NCBI GenBank assembly: GCA_947044365.1
Contig: OX345642.1
Location: 1,709,001-1,773,000 of the forward strand
Direction of reading: 5' to 3'
Source: Petrosia ficiformis
Lineage: Eukaryota; Porifera; Demospongiae; Haplosclerida; Petrosiidae
Length of the DNA stretch: 64,000 bases
The notes under the pieces are model-generated. The model did no database searches, had not been told where the DNA came from, and saw nothing but the letters and a program-made list of their open reading frames with translations. The translations under genes were made by a program, and so were the position numbers. This document shows, one piece after another, positions 3 through 27,491 of this stretch. Within the stretch, counting starts at the first letter, position 1, and the number at the start of each line of letters is the position of its first letter.

Positions 3-1226
3 GATGGATGGACGGCATTAATACTTTCCAGTCACAATGGTCATCAACAGATAGTGGAACTACTACTCGAGAAACAAGTTGACCCCAATTTTCAAAATAG
101 TAAAAACGGAAGAACAGCCTTAATTCAAGCCAGTCAGAATGGTCATTACCAGGTGGTAGAAATACTACTCAAGAATGGTGCCGATCCTAATATTCACAAC
201 AATGATGGATGGACGGCATTAATACTTTCCAGTGAGAATGGTCATCAACAGATAGTGGAACTACTACTTGAGAAACAAGCTGACCCCAATGTTCAAAACA
301 GTAAAAACGGAAGAACAGCTCTTTTGTTGGCCAGTCAAAATGGTCATTACCAGGTGGTAGAAATACTACTCAAGAATAGTGCTGATCCTAATATTCATGA
401 CAATGAAGAAGTAACAGCTCTTTCACTTGCCATTTATCAAGGTCATTACCAGATAGTAGAAGTACTACTCAAGAATGGTGCTGATCCCGAAATAGGAGGC
501 CGAATAGATACAGTTTCAATCGCTGCTATACATGGTAACATTAGATGTTTAAAAATTATTGAGAAACATACCAAATTGAGTTTAAAAAGCTTATCAATGG
601 GATGGTACTATGCTTGTTGCTGTGGTCAGGTTCCAATCATTACGTTTTTGTCAAATAGGCTAGATATCGATTCTGACCAAACAGATCTTATTGTTTCTTG
701 TGCTGAAGGTGATTTAGGATCAGTAGTAGATCAGTTGATGTCTGGTAAGATATCACCAGATGTTCAGTTTATTCATGGTGTCACTCCTCTCATGATTTCA
801 TCATCTTGTGGATGCACTGATATAGTGGAGGCTCTCATTACAGCTGGTGTTAATGTTAACAAGATAGATGAGTATGGAGATACAGCACTTGACTACACTG
901 AAGAAGCTAAACAAGATAAGACTCGACATCTACTATTACAACATGGTGGACTGCATGGTATAGAGTTAGCCATCACAAGTAAAACTCCAGAGGAACCTTC
1001 AGGTGAAAGCAACATTTCAACTGAAGAAGACATTAGTAATCTACCATCACCTGATACTACAATCTTTACAAGAAGGAAAGGAAAATTAAATATTTCATCA
1101 ATTATGAAATATCTTGAAGCCTCTATTGACACTCATTTTACTAAACACCACTCTGGTTACACAAAAGATCCAATAACTAGATATACAAGTAATACAAACG
1201 ATCTTAATACATCTATCTTATCTTAA
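3..1226 (+). CDS. Death/ankyrin protein, 3' end of upstream copy (partial)
   Basis: Open in frame from position 3 to the stop at 1226; the 5' part lies outside the window. It encodes ankyrin repeats in alternating pairs (TALILSS-NGHQQIVELLLE, then GRTALIQAS-NGHYQVVEILL), then the same C-terminal stretch as the complete copy at 9851-17649: four or five degenerate ankyrin repeats, then a Ser/Thr-rich tail with a TRRKGK cluster, ending TNDLNTSILS. Downstream of about position 420 it is nearly identical to 16843-17649, differing at a handful of sites (Thr/Ser, Ser/Leu, Lys/Glu and Ile/Val among them). In the array the last dimers differ in sequence (VDPNFQ instead of IDPNVQ), so the two copies diverge most in the repeats. 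It is intact as far as visible, so it may be a functional paralogue, or an allele if the assembly split haplotypes. Confidence 0.85.
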   Translation, partial: DGWTALILSSHNGHQQIVELLLEKQVDPNFQNSKNGRTALIQASQNGHYQVVEILLKNGADPNIHNNDGWTALILSSENGHQQIVELLLEKQADPNVQNSKNGRTALLLASQNGHYQVVEILLKNSADPNIHDNEEVTALSLAIYQGHYQIVEVLLKNGADPEIGGRIDTVSIAAIHGNIRCLKIIEKHTKLSLKSLSMGWYYACCCGQVPIITFLSNRLDIDSDQTDLIVSCAEGDLGSVVDQLMSGKISPDVQFIHGVTPLMISSSCGCTDIVEALITAGVNVNKIDEYGDTALDYTEEAKQDKTRHLLLQHGGLHGIELAITSKTPEEPSGESNISTEEDISNLPSPDTTIFTRRKGKLNISSIMKYLEASIDTHFTKHHSGYTKDPITRYTSNTNDLNTSILS

Positions 1227-1574
1227 CACTTATTTTAGTAAACACGAGCCACATTACATGAAACGAAACATCCAATAACTACACACAAGTAACATGAACA
1301 ATCTTAATAAATCCACTAGAAGATATCTTGAATATTTTATTGGAACTCATTTTACTAAACACCAATTAGATTTAAAATATCCAGTAACATGAACATCGTT
1401 AATTAAAAAAGCAATTGATATCAAACACTTTTATAGTTATATACTATTCTTATTTGTACATTCATTTGTAGATCACATTCCTGTATTACAAATTGATTAA
1501 TTTAAAATTTTGATATTTAATTTGGACAAGAAAAGGATATTGCATAATAATTATAATGCTGATGAAGCACATTA
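1227..1574. other. Intergenic, 3' flank of ankyrin gene copy A
   Basis: AT-rich sequence between two converging features. Short, diverged echoes of the ankyrin gene's end (CACTAGAAGATATCTTGAAT, then TTTACTAAACACCA) follow the stop codon, so the 3' end itself was locally duplicated. No coding potential seen. Repeated almost exactly at 17650-17997. Confidence 0.5.
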
Positions 1575-2177
1575 TTATTGACTGTATGTACTATTAAACT
1601 TAATTAATTCTTTAGTAGCCATTCTACATAATATATTGAACTCAACATTTAAATGTTTTCTCCAGTACATGTACATTCTACCCCACACCTCAGCAGGGAA
1701 ACAAGGACTAGATATACCTTGTAGTATCCTAGCAACAGATCTACCAGTAAACTGTTGATCTTCATGAATACTTAACAATGATCTGATATCATTTCTCACT
1801 AGAATAGCTCTCCTCTCTGTTAATGGTTGATGAAGATGTTCATAAGGATCTATATGTAGTGTATGGAAAGTATTTTCAGTGAGCTTGTCATTAAAATACA
1901 GCTGTAATAAATCATTCAGTGAAGGGTTTGTACTGAATAGAGTCATACAAGTGATTAGACTTTCAATATAGAGTACAGCGGATACAACTTCTCTATTCTC
2001 CCCGCTCCTTTTCACTTTATCCAATACTTGTTGACATATCAAATCCTTTTCTTCATTACTAATATCTCTTGATGTAAGATGAAATGATGGGTTACTAAAT
2101 TCCACCATTACATTACTACTGGTAAGAAGCAACCAAATTACAGTACAGTACCTTGTAACGGCTATTATTCTTTGCAT
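1575..2177 (-). pseudogene. RECQL4-like C-terminal exon, orphan fragment (copy A)
   Basis: A 200-codon open frame whose last ~70 residues read like the extreme C-terminus of the RecQ4 helicase: FTGRSVARILQGISSPCFP, then WRKHLNVEFN and MATKELIKF. In animal RECQL4 this block follows the helicase and RQC-like parts, and the family is normally over 1000 residues. A plausible acceptor (TTGCTTCTTACCAG) at about 2127 suggests the true exon starts near SNVMVEFSNPS, with the first ~17 residues read from intron. I found no helicase motifs or other RECQL4 exons on this strand before junctophilin. It is therefore either a 3'-exon fragment left by rearrangement or a small gene of its own. The 200 residues are identical in the second copy at 17998-18600. 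Confidence 0.65.
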
Positions 2178-2384
2178 CTATTTAAAACCAAAACAAATGT
2201 CTACATGACACTTCTTGCATGTATGCAAAACCCAATAAAATGACATTCCTTGCATCTATTTGACAAACCCAATACAAATTGCTCATGGCATTCCTTCCAT
2301 CTAAAATTTTAACTAAAGCTCATTGTATAGTACACTGATACTTCGTCTGCGTCAACACATGGAATGATCAGTTTTAGAGAGAGC

Positions 2385-2955
2385 ATAAGAAAAGAGACTG
2401 GCCGACACTATCAGAAAGGTTTTTTACTACTATCAATATATCTTTAGTCTATTTACCTTATATGTATGTACTTTATTCTATTTATGCAGAAATTAAGTAT
2501 TAGTCCAGAATCAGAAACCATCAACTCAAACACTTCATCATCAAACCAATTGTAAATGCAAGCTCTCTGCCAATTGACTACTAACAGCAGCAAGTCATTG
2601 AATATTGCATATCCTCAGACACTTCAACTTCAACCTCCTGAAGAAAAAGAAATATATGACACTTTGCAAGTTGTTCACGAATCTTTTTTTTTAGTTTAGT
2701 CACCACAAAATACATGCACTGGGAAATGTGTAAAGATTGTGAAGACTTGAATCGGCTGTTTTCAAAACTTCATTGTTACTTTGATTTTTTAGCATGTGGA
2801 TTGATCGTAGCTATTATTCACGAGTTCATTGGAGGAAGTTGTTAACTAAGATGAAAGCTTTCAACACAGAGTGCTCTTCAACTACATTGTGAACAATCAG
2901 CAAAAAAATTTCAAAGAACATCTTCAAAAATTTATACTCAACACTTCAAGATACT
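2385..2955 (+). pseudogene. Decayed Death/ankyrin 5' fragment (copy A)
   Basis: Matches 10155-10865 of the intact Death/ankyrin gene with many substitutions, deletions and stops. Recognisable in order: the end of the Death-domain exon (AAAAGAGACTGGCCGACACT, cf. AAGAGACTATCAGATACTCT), its donor and short intron, the acceptor before AAATTAAGTATTAGTCC, the CAGAATCAGAAACCATC and ACACTTCATCATC stretch, the GACACTTTGCAAG helix, the AATACATGCACTGGGAAA block, and the TACTTCTAACATGCC stretch. Intron and exon are both kept, so it arose by DNA duplication rather than retrotransposition. It is older than the 16 kb duplication, because both copies carry the same lesions. Confidence 0.75.
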
Positions 2956-3030
2956 TCTAACATGCCTGTAATATATAGTGAAGTACACATAAAATATTTG
3001 TTTTACAATTATTGTGTAGCTAGAATAAAA

Positions 3031-4317
3031 TTAATATAAAAGAAAAATAGTGAAATGAAAAATACATAGGAAAATAAAAGTATTCTGGACAGATGAGGTA
3101 AGATAGAACTGGAGCACTGGATGAGGTACTGAAGCACCAGATGAATTAGACCTAAACTGGAGTACTGGATGAGGTAGATCTAGACTGGCATTGGAGCACT
3201 GGATGAGCCAACTATCTACATATGTTAGATAGAGATCATGTGACAATGGACAAACTTCACATTATTATAATAATCATTAGATCTATTTATGAAATTATAA
3301 TAATTATAATTATTATACACTTTTTTATGTTAGAGAGACTGTACTGCATTGCTATGACTGAGAGACAAATCTTCAGCACATGCACTCACTGCAGTGTGCC
3401 AAATGTATTGGAAATAAGTATGATGGAGTTAATCATAACTGTATGTCATGACTTCAGCTGGGTGTGATTGCTTTGTTATTAGCTATGACAAAAGTACTAG
3501 TGTTGCTACGTATGAAACTAATAGTGACTCCAGTTTGAAACACATCAACAGATTTGTTGCAAGACTAATAATGTGAGTTCTGTTTTCAGTAGAACAACTG
3601 CTTTAGAGCTATCAGGAAGCCTTATGCAATCAACCTTATACAAGGCATAATTATGATATGCTGGCACAAGAGAATTGATCAGTATCAGAAGGTCCTGCTT
3701 GGGCTCAATCCCTAGTTGGGATTCCTGATTTCTAATTTTCTCATGTCTGCATGTCATAATGAAGGCTAATATGTAAAACTTTCCCTCTGGCATTTTTACG
3801 AAAGAAAGTTTGTACAAAGTACATTTCAGTCTTTGTTCTCCTGATTCTTGAAGTATTTATGATCACTGAAGTCACTATAACTGGGTGATATACTCTAAAG
3901 GCCATTCATGACCTCAGAAAATAACTCTAATTATCGTTTTTTGTTTATGTCAAATTTCAATCCATTACTTGGGTTACAGTATAATCACTTCATGAGTATT
4001 TATAAAGTCATCACATCCTAATTTTGAGGTCATCATAAATGTGAACAGACTATAATTTTTTATATAGTTCAAATATCAAACATTTAACGAGTACTGTACA
4101 GTGTTCCAATCACAAACCCATGGAAGTGGTCAGGGCATAAGCATATGGAATATAATTCTTAATTAATGTACTAATTTTTTTTAAAAGTTACACATCAAGG
4201 AATATATTTTTGTAAAAAGAAAGATAGGAAAACATTTAGACACACATAATTATACAGCTGCTTAGACAAGTTCATTTATATCTGTTTCTTGTAATATTTC
4301 CCCATCTGTGTGAGTGG
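3031..4317. other. Intergenic with small repeats, no gene seen
   Basis: Contains a short degenerate tandem repeat around 3100-3210 (units of ACTGGATGAGGTA), an AT-rich patch at 3265-3320, a stretch at 3683-3800 related to 7085-7235 (ATTCCTGATTTCTAATTTTC, CTTTCCCTCTGGCA) that may be a decayed SINE, and a Rep-2 element at 3895-4054. No conserved open frame recognised. Duplicated at 19454-20741. Confidence 0.5.
3895..4054 (+). repeat. Rep-2 dispersed element (short form)
   Basis: Begins near AAAGGCCATTCATGACCTCA and ends GAGGTCATCATAAATGTGAA followed by CAGACTATA. The same ends and core (TCAAATTTCAATCCATT, GTTACAGTATAATCA) recur at least eight more times in the window, in both orientations. Confidence 0.75.
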
Positions 4318-4470
4318 TTATGCCATGTGTGTCATGAAATTGGCAGGATTGTTCTGAGAGATGGTCATAGATAGGAAAGCGACAACAAATACGATTAAAA
4401 CAAGAAGAAAAAGAAGAAGAATGAAATTGATGTAGGCTATTGTCTTATTCCAGTTTGCCATTTGTGTCTG

Positions 4471-4575
4471 GGAATAGAGAGAGGGAGGGAGAGAGGGAGG
4501 GAAATAGGGAGGGAGAGAGGGAGGGAGAGAAGGAAGGAGGGAGGGAGGGAGAGAGGGAGGGTGGGAGAGAGAGCA
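4471..4575 (-). repeat. Pyrimidine-rich minisatellite before junctophilin exon 5 (copy A)
   Basis: On the minus strand about 100 bases of CCCTCCCTCTCTCC units run straight into the TCTATTCCCAG acceptor of the last exon, making a polypyrimidine tract several times the usual length. The same is seen at 20895-20997. Confidence 0.85.
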
Positions 4576-4987
4576 ATATATTATAAAACATCCTTAATAC
4601 CATATTTATCCTAATTCTGTATTTTCTAATTACCAGTACATCCATGTTCATTGCTTGTTGATGTTTTGTGCCTGGATATTTTACATTATTAGTAGGTGTG
4701 GTTTCATCAAGTTGTTCATCATTGGTAGCATCAGGTGAACCAGTAACAATCTCACCTAAAGGAAACAAACAATAGGACAAGTTAGACACTTGAATGATAG
4801 TTTTATTAGTCCCTTTAGCCTTGTCCTATGGCTCTTTAGATGCATCATTTTTCAGAGAATAAAATATTTCAATTCATTATTGAGCTTCACACAAATAATG
4901 AATATATAGCTAAACTATTATTCCTATTGCCATGAGCATGAAGTAACCATGACAACCAGGCCCAATGTTGCTGAATACCATGAAATA

Positions 4988-5195
4988 GAAGCAATGCGAA
5001 CTTGATACTTTGACCTTTTGATCTGAAGAAGTCTAAGGACTGGAAATCTACTGATATTCCAATATATATATATATATATATATATATTTCTTTAGATATC
5101 TACTGAGATTCAATAACTACATTTATCTGATTCTTTCATTGAAAAACTGTATTTTCTCAATATTTATTGGTATCAAAGAGTTTTTAATGACATTA
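4988..5195. other. Segment present only in the upstream duplicate
   Basis: About 208 bases between CCATGAA and TTATTTGTTCATGC are absent from the downstream copy (junction near 21407). The segment includes an alternating TA run (5061-5087). It may be an insertion here or a deletion there; no clean target duplication or terminal inverted repeat was seen. Confidence 0.7.
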
Positions 5196-5322
5196 TTTGT
5201 TCATGCACATAACGTATATACATGATTATATTGTAACTCAATAGTGGAAGTTTCCTATGCTTTGTCGTGATAATAATGTCATTACTGAATATAATTTCCA
5301 TTTATGTTACAACCTCATACCA

Positions 5323-5592
5323 GTACTGTACCCCCTTACCTGTACTTTACCCTTATACCTGCATTTTACCCCCATACCTGTACTTTACCCCCATACCTGT
5401 ACTTTACTCTCATACCTGTACTTTACCCCCATACCTGTACTTTACCCTCATAGCTATACTTTAACCCCATACTTTATGTACTTTACCCTAATACCTATAC
5501 TTTACCCTCATACCCGTACTTTACCCTCATAATTAATGTACTTTACCCTCATACCTGTACTTTACCCCCATACCTGTACTTTTATCAACTCG
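5323..5592 (-). repeat. 19-bp minisatellite on junctophilin exon 3 donor (copy A)
   Basis: Read on the minus strand, the unit is GTACAGGTATGGGGGTAAA, repeated about 14 times. The first unit is the real exon/intron border: exon 3 ends AAAAGTACAG and the intron begins GTATGGGGG. Every later unit recreates an exon-like AAAGTACAG followed by GTATG. Two units are altered by the insertion CATAATTAATGTA or a similar change. See the matching array at 21539-21802. Confidence 0.9.
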
Positions 5593-6766
5593 AGGTATAC
5601 TCTGCTTTTGACTACTGCGTCTCTTAGTCAAACCTCCTTTTGTAAATTCTGTCTTGTCAATAGGGGGAAGAGATTTTATTTTAGATTCAGTTGGGGTCGT
5701 CATATCGCTATCGGAATCAGATGAATGTAAATCAGATGAGAAAAGAGAATCTTGTTTACTGAGTTTTGAAGTGGATTGGGACTGAGACCGCTCCATTCCA
5801 TCTCCATTTATTGTTAATACACAGTTTGGATCCATATTATAATTTATATCTTCAACTAGAAAATCGCTCTCTGAGCCATCCGATGAGGACCGATGTTTTC
5901 GTGATACCATTTGGAGATTTTCAAAACTTGGTGTTGAAGAAATACTCGGTATTGATAACAAACTCTGTGATTTAGGAACGTCAGCATCTTTGACTTCATT
6001 AAAAGGAAAAAACTTCATTTCATGTACAGGAGACTTTATGTCTTTAGTCTCGTGCACAGAGTCACTCAACAATGAAGACATTTCTTTCGCTATGTCAGCT
6101 TCCATTTTAGCAGTTTCAGAAGCTTTGATTCCTAGCTTGGCTCGACTAGCTGCAGCTGAACCACGGCTTTCAGCCAATATGGATTTAGTTCTAGCCATGT
6201 CTGCAGCTTGTAGTGCCTGTGTGTGAGCATGTTTAACTTTTGATTCCAACTGGTGTTGCTTTAACGAAAGTTTCTTACGCTTCAGAGGTACTGTTAATCT
6301 GCCTTGTTCCCAGTAGCCTTCTTCCCTTTGACCATCAGAATATATTAACACACCATGCCCTGTTCTGGTATTAGAAGACCACTCACCACAGTAAATATAA
6401 AACCCAGGAACTTTAAGGATACCATGACCTTGCCGTTTATCACTTAGCCATTGTCCTTCATATATCTGAGCATTAGGGTCTGATGGAGATGGAGAGGAGA
6501 CAGTTGAAATAGAGCGGAGACTTTTATTTGATAAGCTTTTAATATCACTATATGATGTTGTGTGATGCATATTTTTAATACCAGCACCTAATACAATCTC
6601 TGGTGACTTGGGTGACTTCATAGAACCAGTTCGTCTACTATCTGTAATATTTTGAGTTTTTTCATATACTGAGGAAGATCTTGTACCATATCCACTGCGT
6701 AAACCTTTCTTGTACTGACCTTTGTATATACCTATAAGCGATAAGATAATAGAATGCACTTATAAT

Positions 6767-6945
6767 AGTGTTGTTTTAGTATGACAATAATGACCACTTT
6801 TACTTATAGTTGTAGTATGATGATTTTATCAGTTTTATAGTTTATTAACTAAAATAATATTAGGTTTACTAAAAGGGTTTTAGTTTTAGTTAACTAAAAG
6901 TGCTCATTATTGGCCAATTTTCATTATAGTTAGTTATAGTAGGTA
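6767..6945 (+). mobile_element. Rep-1 MITE, truncated by the duplication junction
   Basis: Starts with the terminal inverted repeat AGTGTTGTTTTAGT and continues with the family core (AATAATGACCACTTTTA, CTCATTATTGGCCAATTTTC, TTAGTTATAGT). It stops abruptly at about 6945, without the right-hand terminus ACTAAAACAACACT seen in full copies (44680-44939, 52401-52668). Confidence 0.8.
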
Positions 6946-9689: not shown

Positions 9690-9850
9690 AAATGGTGTGA
9701 TTTCAACGATACAGCATCAAGAAGTCCAAGATTTGGAGATTTGAAGTAAGAAAGATAGGAAACCTAGAAGTTCAAGGTTTGTTACTATTCAATATCATAC
9801 TGACTATACATCATTTATTATATTCATGCAGAAATTGAGAATAAACAAAC
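9690..9850 (+). other. Probable 5' UTR intron and leader of the Death/ankyrin gene
   Basis: A probable noncoding exon ends AAGTTCAAG at 9776 before GTTTGTTACT. The acceptor ATTCATGCAG ends at 9831, and the leader AAATTGAGAATAAACAAAC runs into the ATG at 9851. The pair of splice sites and the AAATT leader closely resemble those of coding intron 1 (AAAG/GTTTGTTACG ... ATGTAG/AAATTAACATTAAAC), which points to duplication of an exon-intron module. Confidence 0.55.
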
Positions 9851-12800
9851 ATGGGGATTACTAGTTCGAAAAAATCAGATACCAGTTCAGAATCAGATAC
9901 TAGTACTAGTCCAGAACCCAGCTCAAACACTCCATCAGTAGCTAGTAGACCAACAGAAGGTGAACTAGATCTTGAGCTTGCAGAGTTAGTAAACTGGCAA
10001 AGATTTTCTACCCACTTACCAAATCTTACAAGAGCAGATATTGAAGAAATTGAAAAAAATCGTAGTGATGTTAAAAACCAGAAACTTGAGCTTTTTGGAA
10101 CATGGTTACGAAAATCTTCTGATGCAACATGGAATGATGTTATATCAGCTCTAGAGAAAGCACAAGAAAAGAGACTATCAGATACTCTCAGAAAGGTTTG
10201 TTACGCACGAATATCTTTATAATGCTCATTGACTTTACACATATTCTATCCATGTAGAAATTAACATTAAACATGATTCCGGAGTCAGAAACCATCATAT
10301 CAGATACTTCATCAGTAGCTAGCAAACCAACTGAAAGTGAACTAGTTTTTGAACAATTGAAGACACCAAGTTCTCTACCGATTGACAATACCAAACCATC
10401 AAATACTGCTGATCCTCAAACACTTCAACTTAATGAAGAAAACCAAATATTAGACACTTTGCAAGATCTTCATGAATGCTTTGTTAGCTTAGTCACAAAG
10501 GTTAAAAATGCCCTGCAAGAACGAGTTCATAGAGGTGACTTGACCATCAGAACTTTAACAGAATTCATTCAAACATACATGCACTGGGAAAATGTAGAAA
10601 AACTAAACAAAATTGAAGACTTGAATAAGCTGTTTACAAAGCTTCATCGGTACTTTGATTTTTTAGAATGTGGGTTGATTGTAGCTATTACTAAAGAGTA
10701 TATCCAAGGAGAGCTGGCAACTCAATTGAAACAACACAAAGAAAATGCTCTCAATCTTCGTCGTCACCAATCCGTTAAAAATCTTAAAAATGGACTTCGA
10801 AAATTTTATACTCCTCACTTACGAGATACTTCCAACATGCCAGAAGTATACATAAAATTAAATCATGTGTGGGAAGAAGCTCATATCGAAGGATTGTATT
10901 TACTCGTGAAGTGTTTACTACCAAAAACCAAACAACAGTCTCTACTGGAACACATAACGATAGATAGCGGATCAGTTCTTATTAAGTATCGAGTTGAAGA
11001 ATCGTACGTTGACTATCTTATAGCATATGCTGAGAATAAGCCACAATTTATGCGTCTTATTGGTATATTCGGGTTAGTTATTAGCAATATTCCTATTCTA
11101 CAAGAAGACGAAAACAAGAACTTCACTTTTGATTCAGGTCTTCTAGAATCATCACAGTCTGGTAATAATGAAGCAGTTCAGTTTCTACTAGACATGGGAG
11201 TTAATATAAACTATAGTAATAGTGAGGGAAAGACAGCGCTAATGTTAGCATGTCAGGCTGGACATGAAAAGGTTGTACAAACGCTGGTATCAGCAGAGGC
11301 TAACGTAAATCTTCAGGATAGTGCAGGGCAAACTGCACTGATGCTTGCTGATGGAAATGTTGGCGTTGTTCATCGCTTGCTCTTAGCTAAAGCTGATCCT
11401 AATCTACAGCGAAAAGATGGCAACACAGCTTTACATATTGCTTGTTACGAACGTCAGGGTACACTTGCAGAATTACTATTGAGCTTCGGTGCCGCTTTTG
11501 TCATTCCAAATACAAAGGGTGACACAGCATTTTTGGCTTCAGTTAGAGGGAATAATACTGAAATTCTTAAGCTTATGCTTAATTCAATTCCACATTCTCC
11601 TTTCATAGTATCTTTAGGAGTAGTCTATGCATGTAGATTTGGACATTCAGCTGTTTTCAATCTATTCGCAAAACAACTAGAATATACCACTCAAATAGCA
11701 AATTTTTTTATCTCTTGCACTGAAGGAGATGTTGCATCTGTTGTACAACACATCATGGAATTCAACATTGATCCTAACACTACACTAGTATCAGGTATTA
11801 CTCCTCTTATGATTGCCTCATCGTTTGGAAATGCTGACGTGTTAGATTGTCTTCTAGAGTCTAAAGCTGATGTCAACAGTACTGACCAGGATGGTTATTC
11901 ACCATTAACATATGCCATTACATGTAATACATCACTTCACATTGTGCAGTGTCTTCTTGAAGCTGGAGCAAATCCTAATATTCTAGCAGGAGGTGTAACA
12001 ATTGTGGAAAGAGCCAGAGAGAAAGGAGAACAAACAATTTGTGATCTACTTCTCAAGTATTCAGCTCTTCACTTATATAAGAGATTTATACATCTAGTAG
12101 ACAGAATACAAGAGGACATCGATACTTTAATTAATCAAAGGGGGATAGACACTATATTTCAAATTACTCAAAAGCTTGAAGTAAATTTTTATCTCACAGG
12201 ATTGACATCTGAAGTACTGACTAGCATTGCTTTACTCAATCAGTTAACTCCACATTACGATTTCCTACATTTTGAAATGCTTGTTACAATAGCGAGAGAA
12301 TTCCTTAAAGGTGATTTTGAGAATGAACTTGAAGAGTATCATGAGATGACTACAAAATTCATGGAATTGGTAGAAATACAGAAATTCAAAGATGTATTGT
12401 CACTCCTACCTCAACAAGATGTGATGTACTCCACTTCATGTTCCGAACTGACCTTTAAACTCAGCAGACAGTGGGGTAACTTAACACTAAAGAGTCTCCG
12501 TAGACTCTACTCCTACTTATTGTCTGACTATCAAACATACCTCAGTCACATGACAGTAGATGTTGTCAAAGAGGTACTACGTATCAAATTCCTGATACCA
12601 AAGTTGACACAAGTAGTAGATCTTGCATCAGAGAAAACAAAAAAAGAAAAGTTATTGTATCTTTTTGGTGTGATTGAAATAATGCTCGATGATATACTGG
12701 TTTTAACAGTAAATGAAAACAAGAATTTCACTTTTGATTCAGCTCTTCTAGAATCATCACAGTGTGGTAATAATGAAGCAGTTCAGTTTCTACTAGACTT

Positions 12801-15800
12801 GGGAGTTAATATAAACTATAGTAATAATGAGGGAAAGACAGCGCTAATGTTAGCATGTGAGGCTGGACATGAAGAGGTTGTACAAATGCTGGTATCAGCA
12901 GAGGCTAACGTAAATCTTCAGGATAGTGCAGGGCAAACTGCACTGATGCTTGCTGATGGAGATGTTGGCATTGTTCATCGCTTGCTCTTAGCTAAAGCTG
13001 ATCCTAATCTACAGCGAAAAGATGGCAACACAGCTTTACATATTGCTTGTTACGAACGCCAGAGTGCAATTGCAGAATTACTATTGAGCTTTGGTGCCGC
13101 TTTTGTCATTCCAAATGCAAAGGGTGACACAGCATTTTTGGGTTCAGTTAGAGGGAATAATACTGAAATTCTTAAGCTTATGCTTAATTCCATTCCACAT
13201 TCTCCTTTCATAGTATCTTTAGGAGTAGTCTATGCATGTAGATTTGGACATTCAGCTGTTTTCAATCTATTTACGAAACAACTAGAATATACCACTCAAA
13301 TAGCAAATTTTTTTATCTCTTGCGCTGAAGGAGATGTTGGATCTGTTGTACAACACATCATGGAAATCAACATTGATCCTAACACTACACTAATATCAGG
13401 TATTACTCCTCTTATGATTGCCTCATCGTTCGGAAATGCTGACGTGTTAGATCGTCTTCTAGAGGCTAAAGCTGATGTCAACAGTACTGACCAGGATGGT
13501 TATTCACCATTAACATATGCCATTACAGGTAGTACATCCCTTCACATTGTACAGTGTCTTCTTGAAGCTGGAGCAAATCCTAATATTCTAGCAGGAGGTG
13601 TAACAATTGTGAAAAGAGCCAGAGAGAAAGGAAAACAAACAATTTGTGATCTACTTCTCAAGTATTCAGCTCTTCACTTAAATAAGAGATTTATACATCT
13701 AGTAGACAGAATACAAGAAGGCATTGATACTTTAATCAAAAGGGGTAAAGATATCTTACTCCAAATCACTAAACAGCTTGAAACAAAGTTTCATCTCACA
13801 GGATTGACATCTAAAGTACAGACTAGCATTGCTTTACTCAATCAGTTAACACCATATTATGATTTCCTACATTTTGAAATGCTTGTTACGATAGCGAGAG
13901 AATTTCTTAAAGGTGATTTTGAGAATGAACTTGAAGAGTATCATGAGATGACTACAAAATTCATGGAAATGGTAGAAATACAGAAATTCAAAGATGTCTT
14001 GTCACTCCTACCTCAACAAGATGTGATGTCCTCCACGTCATGTTCCGAACTGACCTTTAAACTCGCCAGACAGTGGGGTAACTTAACACTAAAGAGTCTC
14101 CGTAGACTCTACTCCTACTTATTGCCTGACTATCAAACGTACCTCAGTCACATGACAGTAGATATTGTAGAAGAGGTACTACGTATCAAATTCCTGATAC
14201 CAAAGTTGACACAAGTAGTAGGTCTTGCATCAGAGAAAACAAAAAAGGAAAAGTTATTGTATCTTCTTGGTGTGATTGACATAATGCTCGATGATATACT
14301 GGTTTTAACAGTAAATGAAAACAAGAATTTCACTTTTGATTCAGCTCTTCTAGAATCATCACAGTCTGGTAATAATGAAGTAGTTCAGTTTCTACTAGAC
14401 TTGGGAGTTAATATAAACTATAGTAATAGTGAGGGAAAGACAGCAGTAATGTTAGCATGTGAGGCTGGATATGAAGAGGTTGTACAAACACTAGTACTGG
14501 TTGGGGCAAACGTTAATTTTCAGGATAACATTGGACAAACAGCATTAATGGTTTCCAAAACAAAAGAGATATTCTCATTACTTCTACAATCTAATGCAGA
14601 TATCAACATCCTCACACATAATGGATCAACACCTTTAATAATAGCTAGTGGTTTAGGACACTTATCAGTAGTTGAAACACTACTAGTAGAATACAGCAAT
14701 GATCCCAATTTTCGAAATGAAATAGGTATGACAGCTCTTTTGTTTGCCAGTGGAAATGGTCATTACCAGGTAGCAGAAATACTACTTAAGAATGGTGCTG
14801 ATCCTAATATTCGTGACAACGATGGATCGACAGCTCTTTTGTTTGCCAGTGGAAATGGTCATTACCATTTAGCAGAAATACTACTCAAGAATGGTGCTGA
14901 TCCTTATATTCAAAGCATTAGTGGATCGACCGCATTAATACTTTCCAGTCAGAATGGTCATCAACAGATAGTGGAACTACTACTCGAGAAACAAGCTGAC
15001 CCCAATGTTCAAAATAGTAAAAACGGAAGAACAGCCTTAATTCAAGCCAGTAAGAATGGTCATTACCAGGTGGTAGAAATACTACTCAAGAAAGGTGCTG
15101 ATCCTAATATTCACAACAATGATGGATGGATGGCATTAATACTTTCCAGTCACAATGGTCATCAACAAATAGTGGAACTACTACTCGAGAAACAAGCTGA
15201 CCCCAATGTTCAAAATAGTAAAAACGGAAGAACAGCCTTAATTCAAGCCAGTCAGAAAGGTCATTACCAGGTGGTAGAAATACTACTCAAGAATGGTGCT
15301 GATCCTAATATTCATGACATCGATGGATGGACAGCCTTGATATGTGCCAGTCACAATGGTCATCAACAGATAGTGGAACTACTACTCGAGAAACAAATTG
15401 ACCCCAATGTTCAAAATAGTAAAAATGGAAGAACAGCCTTAATTCAAGCCAGTCATGAAGGTCATTACCAGGTGGTAGAAATACTACTCAAGAAAGGTGC
15501 TGATCCTAATATTCATGACAATAATGGATGGACGGCATTAATACTTTCCAGTCAGAATGGTCATCAACAGATAGTGGAACTACTACTCGAGAAACAAATT
15601 GACCCCAATGTTCAAAATAGTAAAAATGGAAGAACAGCCTTAATTCAAGCCAGTCAGAAAGGTCATTACCAGGTGGTAGAAATACTACTCAAGAAAGGTG
15701 CTGATCCTAATATTCACAACAATGATGGATGGATGGCATTAATACTTTCCAGTCACAATGGTCATCAACAGATAGTGGAACTACTACTCGAGAAACAAAT

Positions 15801-17649
15801 TGACCCCAATGTTCAAAATAGTAAAAATGGAAGAACAGCCTTAATTCAAGCCAGTCATGAAGGTCATTACCAGGTGGTAGAAATACTACTCAAGAAAGGT
15901 GCTGATCCTAATATTCATGACAATGATGGATGGACAGCATTAATACTTTCCAGTCACAATGGTCATCAACAGATAGTGGAACTACTACTCGAGAAACAAA
16001 TTGACACCAATGTTCAAAATAGTAAAAATGGAAGAACAGCCTTAATTCAAGCCAGTCATGAAGGTCACTACCAGGTGGTACAAATACTACTCAAGAAAGG
16101 TGCTGATCCTAATATTCATGACAATAATGGATGGACGGCATTAATACTTTCCAGTCAGAATGGTCATCAACAGATAGTAGAACTACTACTCGAGAAACAA
16201 ATTGACCCCAATGTTCAAAATAGTAAAAATGGAAGAACAGCCTTAATTCAAGCCAGTAAGAATGGTCATTACCAGGTGGTAGAAATACTACTCAAGAAAG
16301 GTGCTGATCCTAATATTCATGACATCGATGGATGGACAGCATTAATACTTTCCAGTCACAATGGTCATCAACAGATAGTGGAACTACTATTCGAGAAACA
16401 AATTGACCCCAATGTTCAAAATAGTAAAAATGGAAGAACAGCCTTAATTCAAGCCAGTCATGAAGGTCATTACCAGGTGGTAGAAATACTACTCAAGAAT
16501 GGTGCTGATCCTAATATTCATGACATCGATGGATGGACAGCCTTGATATGTGCCAGTCAAAATGGTCACTACCAGGTGGTAGAAATACTACTCAAGAAAG
16601 GTGCTGATCCTAATATTCACAACAATGATGGATGGATGGCATTAATACTTTCCAGTCACAATGGTCATCAACAGATAGTGGAACTACTACTCGAGAAACA
16701 AATTGACCCCAATGTTCAAAATAGTAAAAATGGAAGAACAGCCTTAATTCAAGCCAGTAAGAATGGTCATTACCAGGTGGTAGAAATACTACTCAAGAAT
16801 GGTGCTGATCCTAATATTCACAGCAATGATGAAGTAACAGCTCTTTCGCTTGCCATTTATCAAGGTCATTACCAGATAGTAGAAGTACTACTCAAGAATG
16901 GTGCTGATCCCGAAATAGGAGGCCGAATAGATTCAGTTTTAATCGCTGCTATACATGGTAACATTAGATGTTTAAAAATTATCGAGAAACATACCGAATT
17001 GAGTTTAAAAAGCTTATCAATGGGATGGTACTATGCTTGTTGCTGTGGTCAGGTTCCAATCATTACGTTTTTGTCAAATAGGCTAGATATCGATTCTGAC
17101 CAAACAGATCTTATTGTTTCTTGTGCTGAAGGTGATTTAGGATCAGTAGTAGATCAGTTGATGTCTGGTAAGATATCACCAGATGTTCAGTTTATTCATG
17201 GTGTCACTCCTCTCATGATTTCATCATCTTGTGGATGCACTGATATAGTGGAGGCTCTCATTACAGCTGGTGTTAATGTTAACAAGATAGATGAGTATGG
17301 AGATACAGCACTTGACTACACTGAAGAAGCTAAACAAGATAAGACTCGACATCTACTATTACAACATGGTGGACTGCATGGTATAGAGTTAGCCATCACA
17401 AGTAAAACTCCAGAGGAACCTTCAGGTGAAAGCAACATTTCAACTGAAGAAGACATTAGTAATCTACCATCACCTGATACTACAATATTTACAAGAAGGA
17501 AAGGAAAATTAAATATTTCATCAATTATGAAATATCTTGAAGCCTCTGTTGACACTCATTTTACTAAACACCACTCTGGTTACACAAAAGATCCAATAAC
17601 TAGATATACAAGTAATACAAACGATCTTAATACATCTATCTTATCTTAA
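9851..17649 (+). CDS. Giant Death-domain / helical / ankyrin-repeat protein
   Basis: Two coding exons, 9851-10195 and 10258-17649, join in phase 0 to encode 2578 residues. Residues 2-6 (GITSS) fit the N-myristoylation pattern and are followed by KK. A Death domain spans about 33-115 (LVNWQRFSTHLPNLTRADIE, then LFGTWLRKSSDATWNDVISA). Three modules follow, each an all-helical domain of ~220 residues (FLHFEMLVTIAREFLKGDFE is typical) plus an ankyrin block: helical ~160-400, 716-934 and 1251-1468; ankyrin ~400-715, 935-1250 and 1469-2470. The last block is enlarged by nine near-identical dimers. A Ser/Thr-rich tail ends the protein. No NACHT, kinase or protease domain is visible. Death domains mediate homotypic signalling in immunity and apoptosis and ankyrin repeats bind partners, so a membrane-tethered adaptor or sensor is plausible. 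That role is inference. Confidence 0.85.
11110..14316 (+). repeat. Two tandem ~1.6-kb ankyrin-helical modules inside the gene
   Basis: GAAAACAAGAA begins a module at 11110, another at 12715 (1605 bp later) and a third at 14317 (1602 bp later). The first two modules are complete: ankyrin block starting ENKNFTFDS, then the helical domain starting SALHL-KRFIHLVDRIQ, ending DDILVLTV. They are roughly 93-95% alike by eye in DNA. The third shares only its first ~190 bp and its last part with them; its middle is replaced by the 201-bp array. Confidence 0.9.
14926..16830 (+). repeat. 201-bp ankyrin-dimer array, nine units plus one monomer
   Basis: Each 201-bp unit encodes 67 residues, two ankyrin repeats of 33 and 34: one with NGHQQIVELLLEKQ-DPNVQ, the next with GRTALIQAS and GHYQVVEILLK. 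Nine GRTALI repeats are present, plus one extra HYQ-type monomer near 16535-16640. Units differ at only a few positions, mainly at the loop residues after ASN/ASH/ASQ and in HDN/HNN/HDI. Such homogeneity implies recent unequal exchange or gene conversion. Confidence 0.9.
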
Positions 17650-17997
17650 CACTTATTTTAGTAAACACGAGCCACATTACATGAAACGAAACATCCAATA
17701 ACTACATACAAGTAACATGAACAATCTTAATAAATCCACTAGAAGATATCTTGAATATTTTATTGGAACTCATTTTACTAAACACCAATTAGATTTAAAA
17801 TATCCAGTAACATGAACATCGTTAATTAAAAAAGCAATTGATATCAAACACTTTTATAGTTATATACTATTCTTATTTGTACATTCATTTGTAGATCACA
17901 TTCCTGTATTACAAATTGATTAATTTAAAATTTTGATATTTAATTTGGACAAGAAAAGGATATTGCATAATAATTATAATGCTGATGAAGCACATTA
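17650..17997. other. Intergenic, 3' flank of ankyrin gene copy B
   Basis: Near-identical to 1227-1574 (one visible change: CTACATACAAG for CTACACACAAG). No gene or element recognised beyond the short echoes of the ankyrin 3' end. Confidence 0.5.
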
Positions 17998-18600
17998 TTA
18001 TTGACTGTATGTACTATTAAACTTAATTAATTCTTTAGTAGCCATTCTACATAATATATTGAACTCAACATTTAAATGTTTTCTCCAGTACATGTACATT
18101 CTACCCCACACCTCAGCAGGGAAACAAGGACTAGATATACCTTGTAGTATCCTAGCAACAGATCTACCAGTAAACTGTTGATCTTCATGAATACTTAACA
18201 ATGATCTGATATCATTTCTCACTAGAATAGCTCTCCTCTCTGTTAATGGTTGATGAAGATGTTCATAAGGATCTATATGTAGTGTATGGAAAGTATTTTC
18301 AGTGAGCTTGTCATTAAAATACAGCTGTAATAAATCATTCAGTGAAGGGTTTGTACTGAATAGAGTCATACAAGTGATTAGACTTTCAATATAGAGTACA
18401 GCGGATACAACTTCTCTATTCTCCCCGCTCCTTTTCACTTTATCCAATACTTGTTGACATATCAAATCCTTTTCTTCATTACTAATATCTCTTGATGTAA
18501 GATGAAATGATGGGTTACTAAATTCCACCATTACATTACTACTGGTAAGAAGCAACCAAATTACAGTACAGTACCTTGTAACGGCTATTATTCTTTGCAT
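17998..18600 (-). pseudogene. RECQL4-like C-terminal exon, orphan fragment (copy B)
   Basis: Encodes the same 200 residues as 1575-2177 with no difference, including GRSVARILQGISSPCFPAEV and the WRK-HLNVEFN block characteristic of the RecQ4 C-terminus. Neither the helicase core nor the N-terminal Sld2-like region is present between here and junctophilin. Its neighbours are the Death/ankyrin gene (converging from the left) and, on its upstream side, a decayed Death/ankyrin fragment in the opposite orientation; that insertion could have separated this exon from the rest of the helicase gene. Perfect conservation contrasts with the changes in the neighbouring junctophilin copies but may only reflect the low local divergence. 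Confidence 0.65.
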
Positions 18601-18807
18601 CTATTTAAAACCAAAACAAATGTCTACATGACACTTCTTGCATGTATGCAAAACCCAATAAAATGACATTCCTTGCATCTATTTGACAAACCCAATACAA
18701 ATTGCTCATGGCATTCCTTCCATCTAAAATTTTAACTAAAGCTCATTGTATAGTACACTGATACTTCGTCTGCGTCAACACATGGAATGATCAGTTTTAG
18801 AGAGAGC

Positions 18808-19390
18808 ATAAGAAAAGAGACTGGCCGACACTATCAGAAAGGTTTTTTACTACTATCAATATATCTTTAGTCTATTTACCTTATATGTATGTACTTTATT
18901 CTATTTATGCAGAAATTAAGTATTAGTCTAGAATCAGAAACCATCAACTCAAACACTTCATCATCAAACCAATTGTAAATGCAAGCTCTCTGCCAATTGA
19001 CTACTAACAGCAGCAAGTCATTGAATATTGCATATCCTCAGACACTTCAACTTCAACCTCCTGAAGAAAAAGAAATATATGACACTTTGCAAGTTGTTCA
19101 CGAATCTTTTTTTTTAGTTTAGTCACCACAAAATACATGCACTGGGAAATGTGTAAAGATTGTGAAGACTTGAATCGGCTGTTTTCAAAACTTCATTGTT
19201 ACTTTGATTTTTTAGCATGTGGATTGATCGTAGCTATTATTCACGAGTTCATTGGAGGAAGTTGTTAACTAAGATGAAAGCTTTCAACACAGAGTGCTCT
19301 TCAACTACATTGTGAGCAATCAGCAAAAAAATTTCAAAGAACATCTTCAAAAATTTATACTCAACACTTCAAGATACTTCTAACATGCCT
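18808..19390 (+). pseudogene. Decayed Death/ankyrin 5' fragment (copy B)
   Basis: Same relic as 2385-2955 with two visible base changes (TAGTCTAGAATC for TAGTCCAGAATC, GTGAGCAATC for GTGAACAATC) and the same stops and deletions. It keeps the exon 1 end, intron 1 and the start of exon 2 of the intact gene, up to the stretch corresponding to residues HLRDTSNMPEVY. Confidence 0.75.
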
Positions 19391-20741
19391 GTAATATATA
19401 GTGAAGTACACATAAAATATTTGTTTTACAATTATTGTGTAGCTAGAATAAAATTAATATAAAAGAAAAATAGTGAAATGAAAAATACATAGGAAAATAA
19501 AAGTATTCTGGACAGATGAGGTAAGATAGAACTGGAGCACTGGATGAGGTACTGAAGCACCAGATGAATTAGACCTAAACTGGAGTACTGGATGAGGTAG
19601 ATCTAGACTGGCATTGGAGCACTGGATGAGCCAACTATCTACATATGTTAGATAGAGATCATGTGACAATGGACAAACTTCACATTATTATAATAATCAT
19701 TAGATCTATTTATGAAATTATAATAATTATAATTATTATACACTTTTTTATGTTAGAGAGACTGTACTGCATTGCTATGACTGAGAGACAAATCTTCAGC
19801 ACATGCACTCACTGCAGTGTGCCAAATGTATTGGAAATAAGTATGATGGAGTTAATCATAACTGTATGTCATGACTTCAGCTGGGTGTGATTGCTTTGTT
19901 ATTAGCTATGACAAAAGTACTAGTGTTGCTACGTATGAAACTAATAGTGACTCCAGTTTGAAACACATCAACAGATTTGTTGCAAGACTAATAATGTGAG
20001 TTCTGTTTTCAGTAGAACAACTGCTTTAGAGCTATCAGGAAGCCTTATGCAATCAACCTTATACAAGGCATAATTATGATATGCTGGCACAAGAGAATTG
20101 ATCAGTATCAGAAGGTCCTGCTTGGGCTCAATCCCTAGTTGGGATTCCTGATTTCTAATTTTCTCATGTCTGCATGTCATAATGAAGGCTAATATGTAAA
20201 ACTTTCCCTCTGGCATTTTTACGAAAGAAAGTTTGTACAAAGTACATTTCAATCTTTGTCCTCCTGATTCTTGAAGTATTTATGATCACTGAAGTCACTA
20301 TAACTGGGTGATATACTCTAAAGGCCATTCATGACCTCAGAAAATAACTCTAATTATCGTTTTTTGTTTATGTCAAATTTCAATCCATTACTTGGGTTAC
20401 AGTATAATCACTTCATGAGTATTTATAAAGTCATCACATCCTAATTTTGAGGTCATCATAAATGTGAACAGACTATAATTTTTTATATAGTTCAAATATC
20501 AAACATTTAACGAGTACTGTACAGTGTTCCAATCACAAACCCATGGAAGTAGTCAGGGCATAAGCATATGGAATATAATTCTTAATTAATGTACTAATTT
20601 TTTTTTAAAAGTTACACATCAAGGAATATATTTTTGTAAAAAGAAAGATAGGAAAACATTTAGACACACATAATTATACAGCTGCTTAGACAAGTTCATT
20701 TATATCTGTTTCTTGTAATATTTCCCCATCTGTGTGAGTGG
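19391..20741. other. Intergenic with small repeats, no gene seen
   Basis: Duplicate of 2956-4317. Holds a degenerate ACTGGATGAGGTA repeat (about 19525-19630), a possible SINE relic (20100-20220) and a Rep-2 element (20319-20478). No conserved open frame recognised. Confidence 0.5.
20319..20478 (+). repeat. Rep-2 dispersed element (short form, copy B)
   Basis: Duplicate of 3895-4054, starting near AAAGGCCATTCATGACCTCA and ending AATGTGAACAGACTATA. Confidence 0.75.
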
Positions 20742-23700
20742 TTATGCCATGTGTGTCATGAAATTGGCAGGATTGTTCTGAGAGATGGTCGTAGATAGGA
20801 AAGCGACAACAAATACGATTAAAACAAGAAGAAAAAGAAGAAGAATGAAATTGATGTAGGCTATTGTCTTATTCCAGTTTGCCATTTGTGCCTGGGAATA
20901 GAGAGAGGGAGGGAGAGAGGGAGGGAAATAGGGAGGGAGAGAGGGAGGGAGAGAAGGAAGGAGGGAGGGAGGTAGAGAGGGAGGGTGGGAGAGAGAGCAA
21001 TATATTATAAAACATCCTTAATACCATATTTATCCTAATTCTGTATTTTCTAATTACCAGTACATCCATGTTCATTGCTTGTTGATGTTTTGTGCCTGGA
21101 TATTTTACATTATTAGTAGGTGTGGTTTCATCAAGTTGTTCATCATCGGTAGCATCAGGTGAACCAGTAACAATCTCACCTGAAGGAAACAAACAATAGG
21201 ACAAGTTAGACACTTGAATGATAGTTTTATTAGTCCCTTTAGCCTTGTCCTATGGCTCTTTAGATGCATCATTTTTCAGAGAATAAAATATTTTAATTCA
21301 TTATTGAGCTTCACACAAATAATGAATATATAGCTAAACTATTATTCCTATTGCCATGAGCATGAAGTAACCATGACAACCAGGCCCAATGTTGCTGCAT
21401 ACCATGAATTATTTGTTCATGCACATAACATATATACATGATTATATTGTAACTCAATAGTGGAAGTTTCCTATGCTTTGTCGTGATAATAATGTCATTA
21501 CTGAATACAATTTCCATTTATGTTACAACCTCATACCAGTACTGTACCCCCATACCTGTACTTTACTCTTATACCTGCATTTTACCCCCATACCTGTACT
21601 TTACCCCCATACCTGTACTTTACTCTCATACCTGTACTTTACCCCCATACCTGTACTTTACCCTCATAGCTATACTTTACCCCCATACTTTATGTACTTT
21701 ACCCTAATACCTATACTTTACCCTCATACCCGTACTTTACCCTCATAATTAATGTACTTTACCCCCATACCTGTACTTTACCCTCATACCTGTACTTTTA
21801 TCAACTCGAGGTATACTCTGCTTTTGACTACTGCGTCTCTTAGTCAAACCTCCTTTTGTAAATTCTGTCTTGTCAATAGGGGGAAGAGATTTTATTTTAG
21901 ATTCAGTTGGGGTCGTCATATCGCTATCGGAATCAGATGAATGTAAATCAGATGAGAAAAGAGAATCTTGTTTACTGAGTTTTGAAGTGGATTGGGACTG
22001 AGACTGCTCCATTCCATCTCCATTTATTGTTAATACACAGTTTGGATCCATATCATAATTTATATCTTCAACTAGAAAATTGCTCTCTGAGCCATCCGAT
22101 GAGGTCCGATGTTTTCGTGATACCATTTGGAGATTTTCAAAACTTGGTGTTGAAGAAATACTTGGTATTGATAACAAACTCTGTGATTTAGGAACGTCAG
22201 CATCTTTGACTTCATTAAAAGGAAAAAACTTCATATCATGTACAGGAGACTTTATGTCTTTAGTCTCGTGCACAGAGTCACTCAACAATGAAGACATTTC
22301 TTTTGCTATGTCAGCTTCCATTTGAGCAGTTTCAGAAGCTTTGATTCCTAGCTTGGCACGACTAGCTGCAGCTGAACCACGGCTTTCAGCCAATATGGAT
22401 TTAGTTCTAGCCATGTCTGCAGCTTGTAGTGCCTGTGTGTGAGCATGTTTAACTTTTGATTCCAACTGGTGTTGCTTTAACGAAAGTTTCTTACGCTTCA
22501 GAGGTACTGTTAATCTGCCTTGTTCCCAGTAGCCTTCTTCCCTTTGACCATCAGAATATATTAATACACCATGCCCTGTTCTGGTATTAGAAGACCACTC
22601 ACCACAGTAAATATAAAACCCAGGAACTTTAAGGATACCATGACCTTGCCGTTTATCACTTAGCCATTGTCCTTCATATATCTGAGCATTAGGGTCTGAT
22701 GGAGATGGAGAGGAGACAGTTGAAATAGAGTGGAGACTTTTATTTGATAAGCTTTTAATATCACTATATGATGTTGTGTGATGTATATTTTTAATACCAG
22801 CACCTAATACAATCTCTGGTGACTTGGGTGACTTCATAGAACCAGTTCGTCTACTATCTGTAATATTTTGAGTTTTTTCATATATTGAGGAAGATCTTGT
22901 ACCATATCCACTGCGTAAACCTTTCTTGTACTGACCTTTGTATATACCTATAAGCGATAAGATAATAGAATGCACTTGTAATAGTGTTGTTTTAGTATGA
23001 CAATAATGACCACTTTTAATTATAGTTATAGTATGTTGATTTTATCAATTTTATTGTTTATTAACTAAAATAATATTAGGTTTACTAAAAGGGTTTTAGT
23101 TTTAGTTAACTAAAAGTGCTCATTATTGGCCAATTTTCATTATAGTTAGTTATAGTTATTACAGTAGACATGTAAGCAAGTCACTGAAATAGCAAACAAA
23201 ACATGTAGACAAAACTAAGGGTTTGTTATGACCTCAGAAACATATTCATAGCTTTAGTTTGGAAGGACCAAAAATCTTTTTACCTGCACCATTTTATATA
23301 ATTATCCTTCCTGTTACTTTTTGTGTATGTCACATTTCAATCAATTGCTTCATTATTGAGTTACAGTATTAACATTATGACAGTAAAATATACACTATAT
23401 TATATATAGTCATCAAATCCTAATTTTGAGGTCATCGTCAATGTGAACAGATATTGACTGCAGTATAAATAAGTATCAGTGGAGGTCATTCATTTATAGT
23501 ATATGTATAAAAATTAGGGCTGGGACAATTAATTAATTAATCAATTGATATTGAAAAGTCTTCTGATTATCGATTATAAGTCTGTGATATCGATTATGCT
23601 AATTATTCCAAAAGACATACTTTTCAAGCATGTGATGGCAAATAATGTACAATATAGATGTGATAGGAAGCATTTTTGATCATCAAATAGGAGGTGTTTC

Positions 23701-26700: not shown

Positions 26701-27491
26701 ATTTGTAGCTATAATGCCATTATACTAATACAAACCACAGAATACAAGTGGTCATACTTGAGTACAACCTGATATCATCCTAACAATGTCTATACACCTA
26801 CGTACTATAAATATCATGATTCCAAAATTGAACAATGGCTGAATTGCAATCAATACTATATATCAGTTGTCTGCAGTTATTTCCTTGTCAGTGACTGAAT
26901 CATTCTCAAGTTGTTTCCCAAATCACACTTGTGGCGAGGGTTCTACACTGCAAGTAGATTCATTGTATATTGCGATTTATATAAGTATTATACTATTTTG
27001 AATGGGTAATGATTATAGCTCCTTATATGACAATCCAATCATGGTTGCTTCTTTGTAGCTATAATGCTAATACAAACCACAGAATACAAGTAGTCATACT
27101 TGAGTACAACCTAACATGATTCTAACAATGTCTATACACCTACTTATACCATACGATACTGTAAATACAACATCACTTTACGATTCCAAAATTGAGCACT
27201 AGCTGAATTGCAACCAATACACTGTATATCTAAGTTCACATCAAAGCATACCTCTTTCCCTACACCATGTCGCATCCCATCTCTCCATGTTCCCTTGTAT
27301 TGCTGTCCATTGGACCATGTAAATACTCCACTAGACTGAATGCCATTCTCCCATCTACCCTCAAACACACCACTGTCTGATGGTCCAACACACACACCAT
27401 GGCCATTGGCTCCATCTCCATTCCATTCGCCAATGTAACGTCCACCGTCTGTAAAATCAAAGACTCCTTTATCTGGATCTTTTGCAGCCAT
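20742..27491 (-). CDS. JPH: Junctophilin
   Basis: Five exons, 27491-27252, 25836-25683, 22947-21790, 21179-21058 and 20891-20742, with GT/AG borders and matching phases, give 607 residues. Six N-terminal MORN repeats are visible (YIGEWNGDGANGHG, FEGRWENGIQSSG, YKGTWRDGMRHGVG, YCGDFQENTRGPYG, YQGTWEDGLQDGVG, YKGQYKKGLRSGYG). A Ser-rich joining region and two more MORN repeats follow (YEGQWLSDKRQGHG, YCGEWSSNTRTGHG), then an Ala-rich helix (KHAHTQALQAADMARTKSIL), a divergent Ser/Thr-rich region and a C-terminal membrane anchor (about 568-591). The 6+2 layout with helix and anchor is exactly that of junctophilins, which hold the endoplasmic reticulum close to the plasma membrane: MORN repeats touch the plasma membrane, the anchor sits in the ER. 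The gene follows eIF2S2 on the same strand, 243 bp away. The exon 2 donor (G/GTCGGT) is weak. Confidence 0.92.
20895..20997 (-). repeat. Pyrimidine-rich minisatellite before junctophilin exon 5 (copy B)
   Basis: About 100 bases of CCCTCCCTCTCTCC-type units on the minus strand end in the acceptor TCTATTCCCAG at 20892. One unit differs from copy A (CTACCTCCC). Confidence 0.85.
21539..21802 (-). repeat. 19-bp minisatellite on junctophilin exon 3 donor (copy B)
   Basis: About 14 units of GTACAGGTATGGGGGTAAA on the minus strand, beginning with the real donor (exon end at 21790, AAAAGTACAG/GTATGAGGG). Units alternate between GGGGG and GAGGG/GAGAG centres. Unit order differs slightly from copy A, so the array is still changing. 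Confidence 0.9.
22983..23168 (+). mobile_element. Rep-1 MITE in junctophilin intron 2 (right end divergent)
   Basis: Starts AGTGTTGTTTTAGT, carries the family core, and passes the point where copy A is cut (23160) for a few more bases (TATTACAGTAGAC) before losing similarity to full-length members. Confidence 0.75.
23215..23452 (+). repeat. Rep-2 dispersed element
   Basis: TTATGACCTCAGAAACATAT at the left, TTTAGTTTGGAAGGACC and TTGAGTTACAGTATTAAC inside, GAGGTCATCGTCAATGTGAA at the right: the family layout. Confidence 0.8.
23515..23808. mobile_element. hAT-type MITE with 8-bp target duplication
   Basis: Begins TAGGGCTGGGA and ends TCCCAGCCCTA, perfect inverted termini, flanked on both sides by ATAAAAAT (23507-23514 and 23809-23816). 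Internal sequence is non-coding with many ATCGATTAT palindromes. An 8-bp duplication and these ends fit hAT transposons. Confidence 0.9.
24770..24990 (+). repeat. Rep-3 dispersed element
   Basis: GTTTTTGATAAGCTTATATG, GCACTGCACAGTTCTCTCT, GATTATATTGTCACTAACAG and TTGAGCCAATTTGGCTCATG reappear, reverse-complemented and diverged, at 56690-56870. Two copies in this window; class unknown. Confidence 0.65.
25520..25655 (+). repeat. Rep-4 dispersed element
   Basis: GTATTAAAGGTGGGGGAGTG, CATCAATGGTAAATGACG and the AATGTTCA ... GTGTTGTAAAACAGTGC hairpin match 35285-35400 in the same orientation with substitutions. Confidence 0.65.
25837..27251. other. Junctophilin intron 1
   Basis: Contains a short CACACTCAGACACATGG minisatellite (about 25915-26015) and a direct duplication of ~190 bp: 26690-26870 and 27045-27225 share TACAAACCACAGAATACAAG, CATACTTGAGTACAACCT and ACAATGTCTATACACCTAC. 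The nearer copy ends about 20 bp from the exon 1 donor. No gene seen. Confidence 0.7.

Follow-up and report, generated by a model that had tools for sequence, protein, structure and literature searches.

A 64,000-nucleotide stretch of the genome of the sponge Petrosia ficiformis (the window, C7:1709001-1773000) harbors a predicted gene with two coding exons, whose product is best read as a giant protein with the layout Death-(DED-like/TRADD-N-like/ankyrin)x3 followed by a conserved tail (DED, death effector domain). A first-pass annotation, made from the letters of the window, had described a Death domain, three helical modules each followed by an ankyrin block, and a Ser/Thr-rich tail. The Death domain (PF00531), the three modules, the ankyrin blocks and a tail with Ser/Thr at 23 of 78 residues were all recovered, but the modules are not purely helical. 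Relatives were searched in 191,215,263 bases of this genome (29 contigs). The features of the gene are as follows:

9777..9831, plus strand: putative GT..AG intron ahead of exon 1, probably part of the 5' untranslated region; read directly, by-eye likeness to the intron at 10196-10257
9851..10195, plus strand: coding exon 1, 115 amino acids, with MGITSSKK start, Ser/Thr-rich linker and Death domain (Pfam Death, 30.3 bits; 87% identical copies elsewhere)
10196..10257, plus strand: phase-0 intron GTTTGTTAC...CATGTAG, GT..AG, 62 bases; same intron kept in L017, L018 and L025
10258-17649, plus strand: exon 2, open frame of 2463 codons plus stop
10273..10359, plus strand: start of exon 2 (MIPESETIISDTSSVASKPTESELVFEQL), read as leftover of a second Death-domain unit
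10468..10773, plus strand: module 1, DED-like six-helix fold (AlphaFold model, structural matches)
10834..11103, plus strand: module 1, TRADD-N-like sandwich; beta2-beta3 turn GS (model; relatives match Pfam TRADD-N families, its own stretch does not)
11134..12060, plus strand: ankyrin block 1 (Pfam Ank; repeat list)
12076..12372, plus strand: module 2, DED-like fold (AlphaFold model)
12433..12708, plus strand: module 2, TRADD-N-like sandwich; turn VVKEV, serine absent (AlphaFold model)
12739..13662, plus strand: ankyrin block 2, near-identical to block 1 (dN 0.036, dS 0.037; nonsynonymous and synonymous divergence)
13681..13974, plus strand: module 3, DED-like half, inferred from the 89% identity of modules 3 and 2
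14035..14310, plus strand: module 3, TRADD-N-like half; turn IVEEV, serine absent (by likeness to module 2)
14341..17412, plus strand: long ankyrin block 3 (Pfam Ank)
14857-16599, plus strand: array of 201-bp (67-aa) ankyrin doublets, 8.7 copies, inside ankyrin block 3
17413..17649, plus strand: conserved C-terminal tail with the stop codon (identity 79% to L019 and 85% to L029; dN/dS 0.28 versus L017)

An in-frame TAA at 9842-9844 lies directly upstream of the ATG at 9851. Donor and acceptor of the intron at 10196-10257 are unchanged in the two closest copies, L017 and L018. In L025 the same intron precedes an exon that begins similarly and goes on with a full second Death domain. Such a second unit seems to have been lost from the window gene, leaving a remnant at the beginning of exon 2. 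In L022 and L024 the Death exon is retained and is followed by a Death-module frame. Moreover, among 25 family loci fetched by place and hand-picked from the search matches, 19 carry a Death domain and a module within a single open frame (L021 and L033 of these overlap in one gene). This supports, short of proof, the view that the Death exon belongs with the ankyrin exon; the two can be spliced in phase 0. Judged from the sequence, the gene model is plausible and intact, of a known sponge kind and in an unusual multi-module form.

The N-terminal 115 residues, for which a search with Death-fold profiles had been proposed, matched Pfam Death above the cut-off of 22.6 bits (E 4.5e-7, residues 47-113), and the copies of the exon lie at C7:1664838 and C7:1702239, each 87% identical. 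Against PDB sequences the exon returned a single row, TNFR superfamily member 6 (E 0.4). As the first-pass annotation had stated, neither a NACHT nor a catalytic domain was found in the Pfam scan of both exons; with NACHT absent from the families listed, the protein falls outside the NOD-like receptors (NLRs). N-myristoylation follows the pattern of an N-terminal MGxxx[ST]. MGITSSKK fits this pattern, as was claimed, but among the starts read it occurs solely in the window gene and in L017 and L018, its nearest tandem copies. At the same place the nearby paralogue exons L022, L024 and L025 read MEQNTSSK, and nine of twelve further family frames begin with MS. Myristoylation as a family-wide feature was rejected, since MGITSSKK is confined to three recent copies among the starts read. 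The proposal of a membrane-tethered multi-module sensor or scaffold stands in its multi-module part, which is the best supported, but tethering depends on the motif of these three copies.

Exon 2 contains 36 Pfam Ank stretches and three modules of ~225 residues, of which module 3 is 89% and module 1 is 24% identical to module 2. AlphaFold models were made for modules 1 and 2. In both, ~120 helical residues are followed by ~90 residues that form a beta-alpha-beta-beta-alpha-beta sandwich. The helical unit first described is thus helical in its DED-like half, which in structure comes closest to death effector domains, but its remainder is a TRADD-N-like sandwich, matching RRM/ACT/S6-like folds; the TRADD-N fold is itself RRM-like. 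The first-pass annotation had named a match of the helical domain to a known non-immune family as evidence that would count against its reading; what the domain appears to resemble are adaptor domains of apoptosis and immunity.

The link to TRADD-N was obtained through relatives. A profile of the module matched 7/7 tested NCOA6_TRADD-N exons with 28-45 bits, spanning both halves (three of the seven are over the cut-off and four are near-identical mutually; an eighth, L043, in opposite orientation, was unscored), and the profile-profile comparison gave 96.7% over 187 columns. When 16 TRADD-N-half sequences were scanned against Pfam, six matched NCOA6_TRADD-N and two TRADD-like_N; the three of the window matched neither. 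In addition, the module profile, in which P0089 is included, matched all 28 proteins from the P0089 search, the match being clear over only part of P0114, P0115 and P0116, with a TRADD-like_N match inside the module in three of nine scanned (E 0.002-0.034). Because relatives match the profiles and the window modules do not, the TRADD-N link of the latter is transitive. Models and relatives together support the view that the module is a DED-like and TRADD-N-like pair.

Several searches did not return this assignment. The three helical halves gave no DED match in Pfam, and the three window modules, whole and as halves, all stayed below the Pfam cut-offs, with TRADD-N not among their matches. A genome search with NCOA6_TRADD-N returned 10 places at E <= 0.1, four of them over the cut-off and none at module loci; because genome-wide profile searches miss the modules, our confidence in the adaptor function proposed below was lowered slightly. 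For the window modules, the best match below the cut-off was to DUF5713 on module 3 (E 7.5e-5, 23.5 bits versus 27.3). Of 26 module segments, two matched NCOA6_TRADD-N among the first 25 of 43 families listed, with a best E of 0.014. Foldseek returned no PDB match at E <= 0.001, and neither the whole-module profile nor that of the TRADD-N half found anything meaningful among PDB sequences. A TRADD-N structure was not among the structure-match lists, which exclude nothing. Profile comparison of the helical half with nine sponge DED segments gave 3.1%, in a register that fits the structural match.

In TRADD-N the beta2-beta3 turn carries a conserved tiny-Ser motif, for which a switch role has been proposed (Kaur et al., 2021; PMC8195603). 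The criterion is a tiny residue followed by Ser or Cys. At this turn the window gene has GS in module 1 and no serine in modules 2 and 3. For the wider family, 147 distinct module instances, some likely allelic, were pooled from the window, the fetched loci and database proteins. Ser or Cys occupied the turn in 107/111 first modules versus 12/36 later modules. In the window and the fetched loci of this genome, the strict motif was found in 19 of 21 modules following a Death domain, in 2 of 20 modules following a module-ankyrin block, and in all four modules without a Death domain seen upstream in frame. A quick tree of 41 modules less than 80% identical placed nine serine-less internal modules in one clade (Shimodaira-Hasegawa-like approximate likelihood ratio test, SH-aLRT, 99). 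Elsewhere in the tree lie four modules that follow a Death domain and lack the strict motif; two of them, both from L038, could reflect shifts in the alignment. The tree gives no support for several independent losses of the serine, as the serine-less internal modules share one clade. The module instances are not independent; therefore most of the serine contrast probably traces to one old change in a single lineage. In the same tree, module 1 (10444-11136) groups with P0087 and P0088, apart from the first modules of other C7 genes, and module 3 groups with internal modules of other C7 genes, a hint that modules were shuffled between paralogues.

Proteins of this kind are known from Amphimedon queenslandica, in which 357 TRADD-N proteins were described; in the majority of architectures one to three Death-like domains precede TRADD-N and a variable end, often ankyrin (Kaur et al., 2021; PMC8195603). 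The window gene shares with this NCOA6-clade expansion, whose proteins carry ankyrin or SH3-LRR, the order Death-like, TRADD-N, ankyrin, restriction to the sponge lineage and, in module 1, the turn serine, and all 21 Amphimedon-named proteins from the P0089 search were matched by the module profile (E 3e-32 to 1e-53, a small set). However, the account given there has TRADD-N mostly in single copy per protein, as a tendency (PMC8195603), whereas here module and ankyrin block occur three to four times per chain and most internal modules lack the turn serine. Of the unusual innate-immunity design that was claimed, the combination of Death-like, TRADD-N and ankyrin domains is thus already known, and what is unusual is the repetition of modules within one chain. 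Cnidarian and bivalve proteins likewise have a DED followed by TRADD-N, some with ankyrin or other domains (PMC8195603); the DED-like half of the window gene differs in being recognised by fold alone and in having a separate Death domain ahead. Some NLRs also join a death-fold domain to a repeat array, but NACHT was not detected in either window exon. TRADD and DEDD2 of vertebrates resemble the window gene in that TRADD-N is joined to a death-fold domain. To our knowledge they have a single module and no ankyrin repeats. The domain order in vertebrate TRADD is the opposite one (PMC8195603). Among the papers listed in literature searches, none beyond Kaur et al. (2021) deals with this architecture in its title or abstract opening.

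Taken together, the function that we favor, with somewhat better than even confidence, is that of a very large adaptor or scaffold inside the cell, belonging to the sponge Death-TRADD-N-ankyrin expansion and working as a ligand-triggered switch. The ankyrin blocks would bind a ligand, which may come from microbes or be a host partner. Flanked by death-fold domains on one side and ankyrin blocks on the other, the TRADD-N-like domains would keep the chain resting until ligand is bound, upon which Death and DED-like domains would assemble with partners bearing the catalytic output. The open frames with their splice sites, the Death domain, the ankyrin repeats, the repetition of modules, and the size and tandem duplication of the family are direct observations. 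We infer the mechanism of ligand binding, switching and partner assembly from the domain types present and, beyond it, a role in immunity and splicing in vivo. If the domain reading is right, a serine-bearing, Death-adjacent module can be compared with serine-less internal modules inside one chain, which is of value given that Kaur et al. propose the turn serine as the switch of TRADD-N proteins (PMC8195603). It would further represent a large non-NLR family whose ankyrin content shifts through duplication of modules and repeats.

A different use of the same parts, tentative and rather doubtful, is a death-fold scaffold built like beads on a string. A single TRADD-N-like domain next to the Death domain would act as the signalling switch, and the internal DED/TRADD-N/ankyrin units, with the switch serine lost, would have turned into a repeatable cassette for sensing or spacing that expands through internal duplication. 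The missing catalytic domain in the Pfam scan and the lack of Ser or Cys at the turn in 24/36 internal modules would also suit a dampener or decoy, whose death-fold domains soak up partners and limit signalling, with the serine-less internal modules as non-signalling spacers. We regard this as unlikely: Death exon and module 1 are open and mildly constrained (dN/dS ~0.5-0.6), and the serine kept in module 1 fits an active adaptor equally well.

The family is large, with at least 122 matches of the Death exon (150 of 334 candidates scored) and at least 150 of the module (150 of 219 candidates scored), clustered mainly on C7 and C11. Two or more modules per frame are present in 12/25 fetched loci, and P0122 and P0125 have four per chain. 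Such large tandem clusters could indicate allorecognition rather than microbial defence, with a variable ankyrin receptor array coupled to cell-death signalling, as could the 201-bp array, which differs in length between the window gene (8.7 units), L017 (11.3) and L018 (15.3), with matches of 93, 78 and 81%. However, exact GRTALI-type doublets run the other way (9, 8 and 6); the longer arrays therefore hold more diverged units, which account for part of the length difference. Seven in-register doublets differ on average by dN 0.047 and dS 0.079. Nor did hydropathy suggest a place at the cell surface (signal peptides were not assessed): of ten stretches with 19-residue hydropathy >1.6, those starting near 913 and 1447 coincide with strands placed by the models in modules 2 and 3, the one at 378 is at the end of module 1, and the one at 1574 is within ankyrin block 3. 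Allorecognition is accordingly considered improbable. The rates do not support the fast-evolving ankyrin surface first proposed, as dN versus the near copies was lowest in ankyrin block 1 (0.022-0.026, versus 0.042 in the Death exon and 0.040-0.042 in module 1). Least probable of all is a repeat-rich tandem expansion with little function, this recent copy heading to decay. Truncated, stop-bearing remnants adjoin the gene (~2368-2950 and 18791-19373), a neighbouring 16-kb duplication is 98% identical, and the linker (dN/dS 1.0) and the comparison of ankyrin blocks 1 and 2 approach a dN/dS of 1. Nevertheless, the window gene keeps its long frame of 2463 aa unbroken, as do two close copies with 2529 and 2761 aa, and 8 of the 122 listed Death-exon matches have internal stops. 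Compared with L017 and L018, dN/dS is ~0.6 for the Death exon, ~0.5 for module 1 and ankyrin block 1, and 0.83 for module 3; the tail has 0.28 (versus L017 only), and module 2 and ankyrin block 2 have 0.21 and 0.49 versus L018.

The surroundings of the gene were shaped by a segmental tandem duplication ~16.4 kb apart, in which 4-4987 corresponds to 16430-21411 and 5187-6940 to 21404-23156 (98.2-98.5% identical). It takes in flanking frames and the end of the preceding copy of the window gene. One remnant lies beside each duplicate, and both run from the last part of the Death exon through the beginning of exon 2 to a portion of module 1. MORN-repeat frames are found on the minus strand at 21749-23041 and 27144-27494 (Pfam MORN 21752-23041 and 27147-27494), the former duplicated with the segment (second copy 5533-6759). 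A minus-strand frame of 200 residues without a Pfam match has an identical translation in both duplicates (17998-18600 and 1575-2177).
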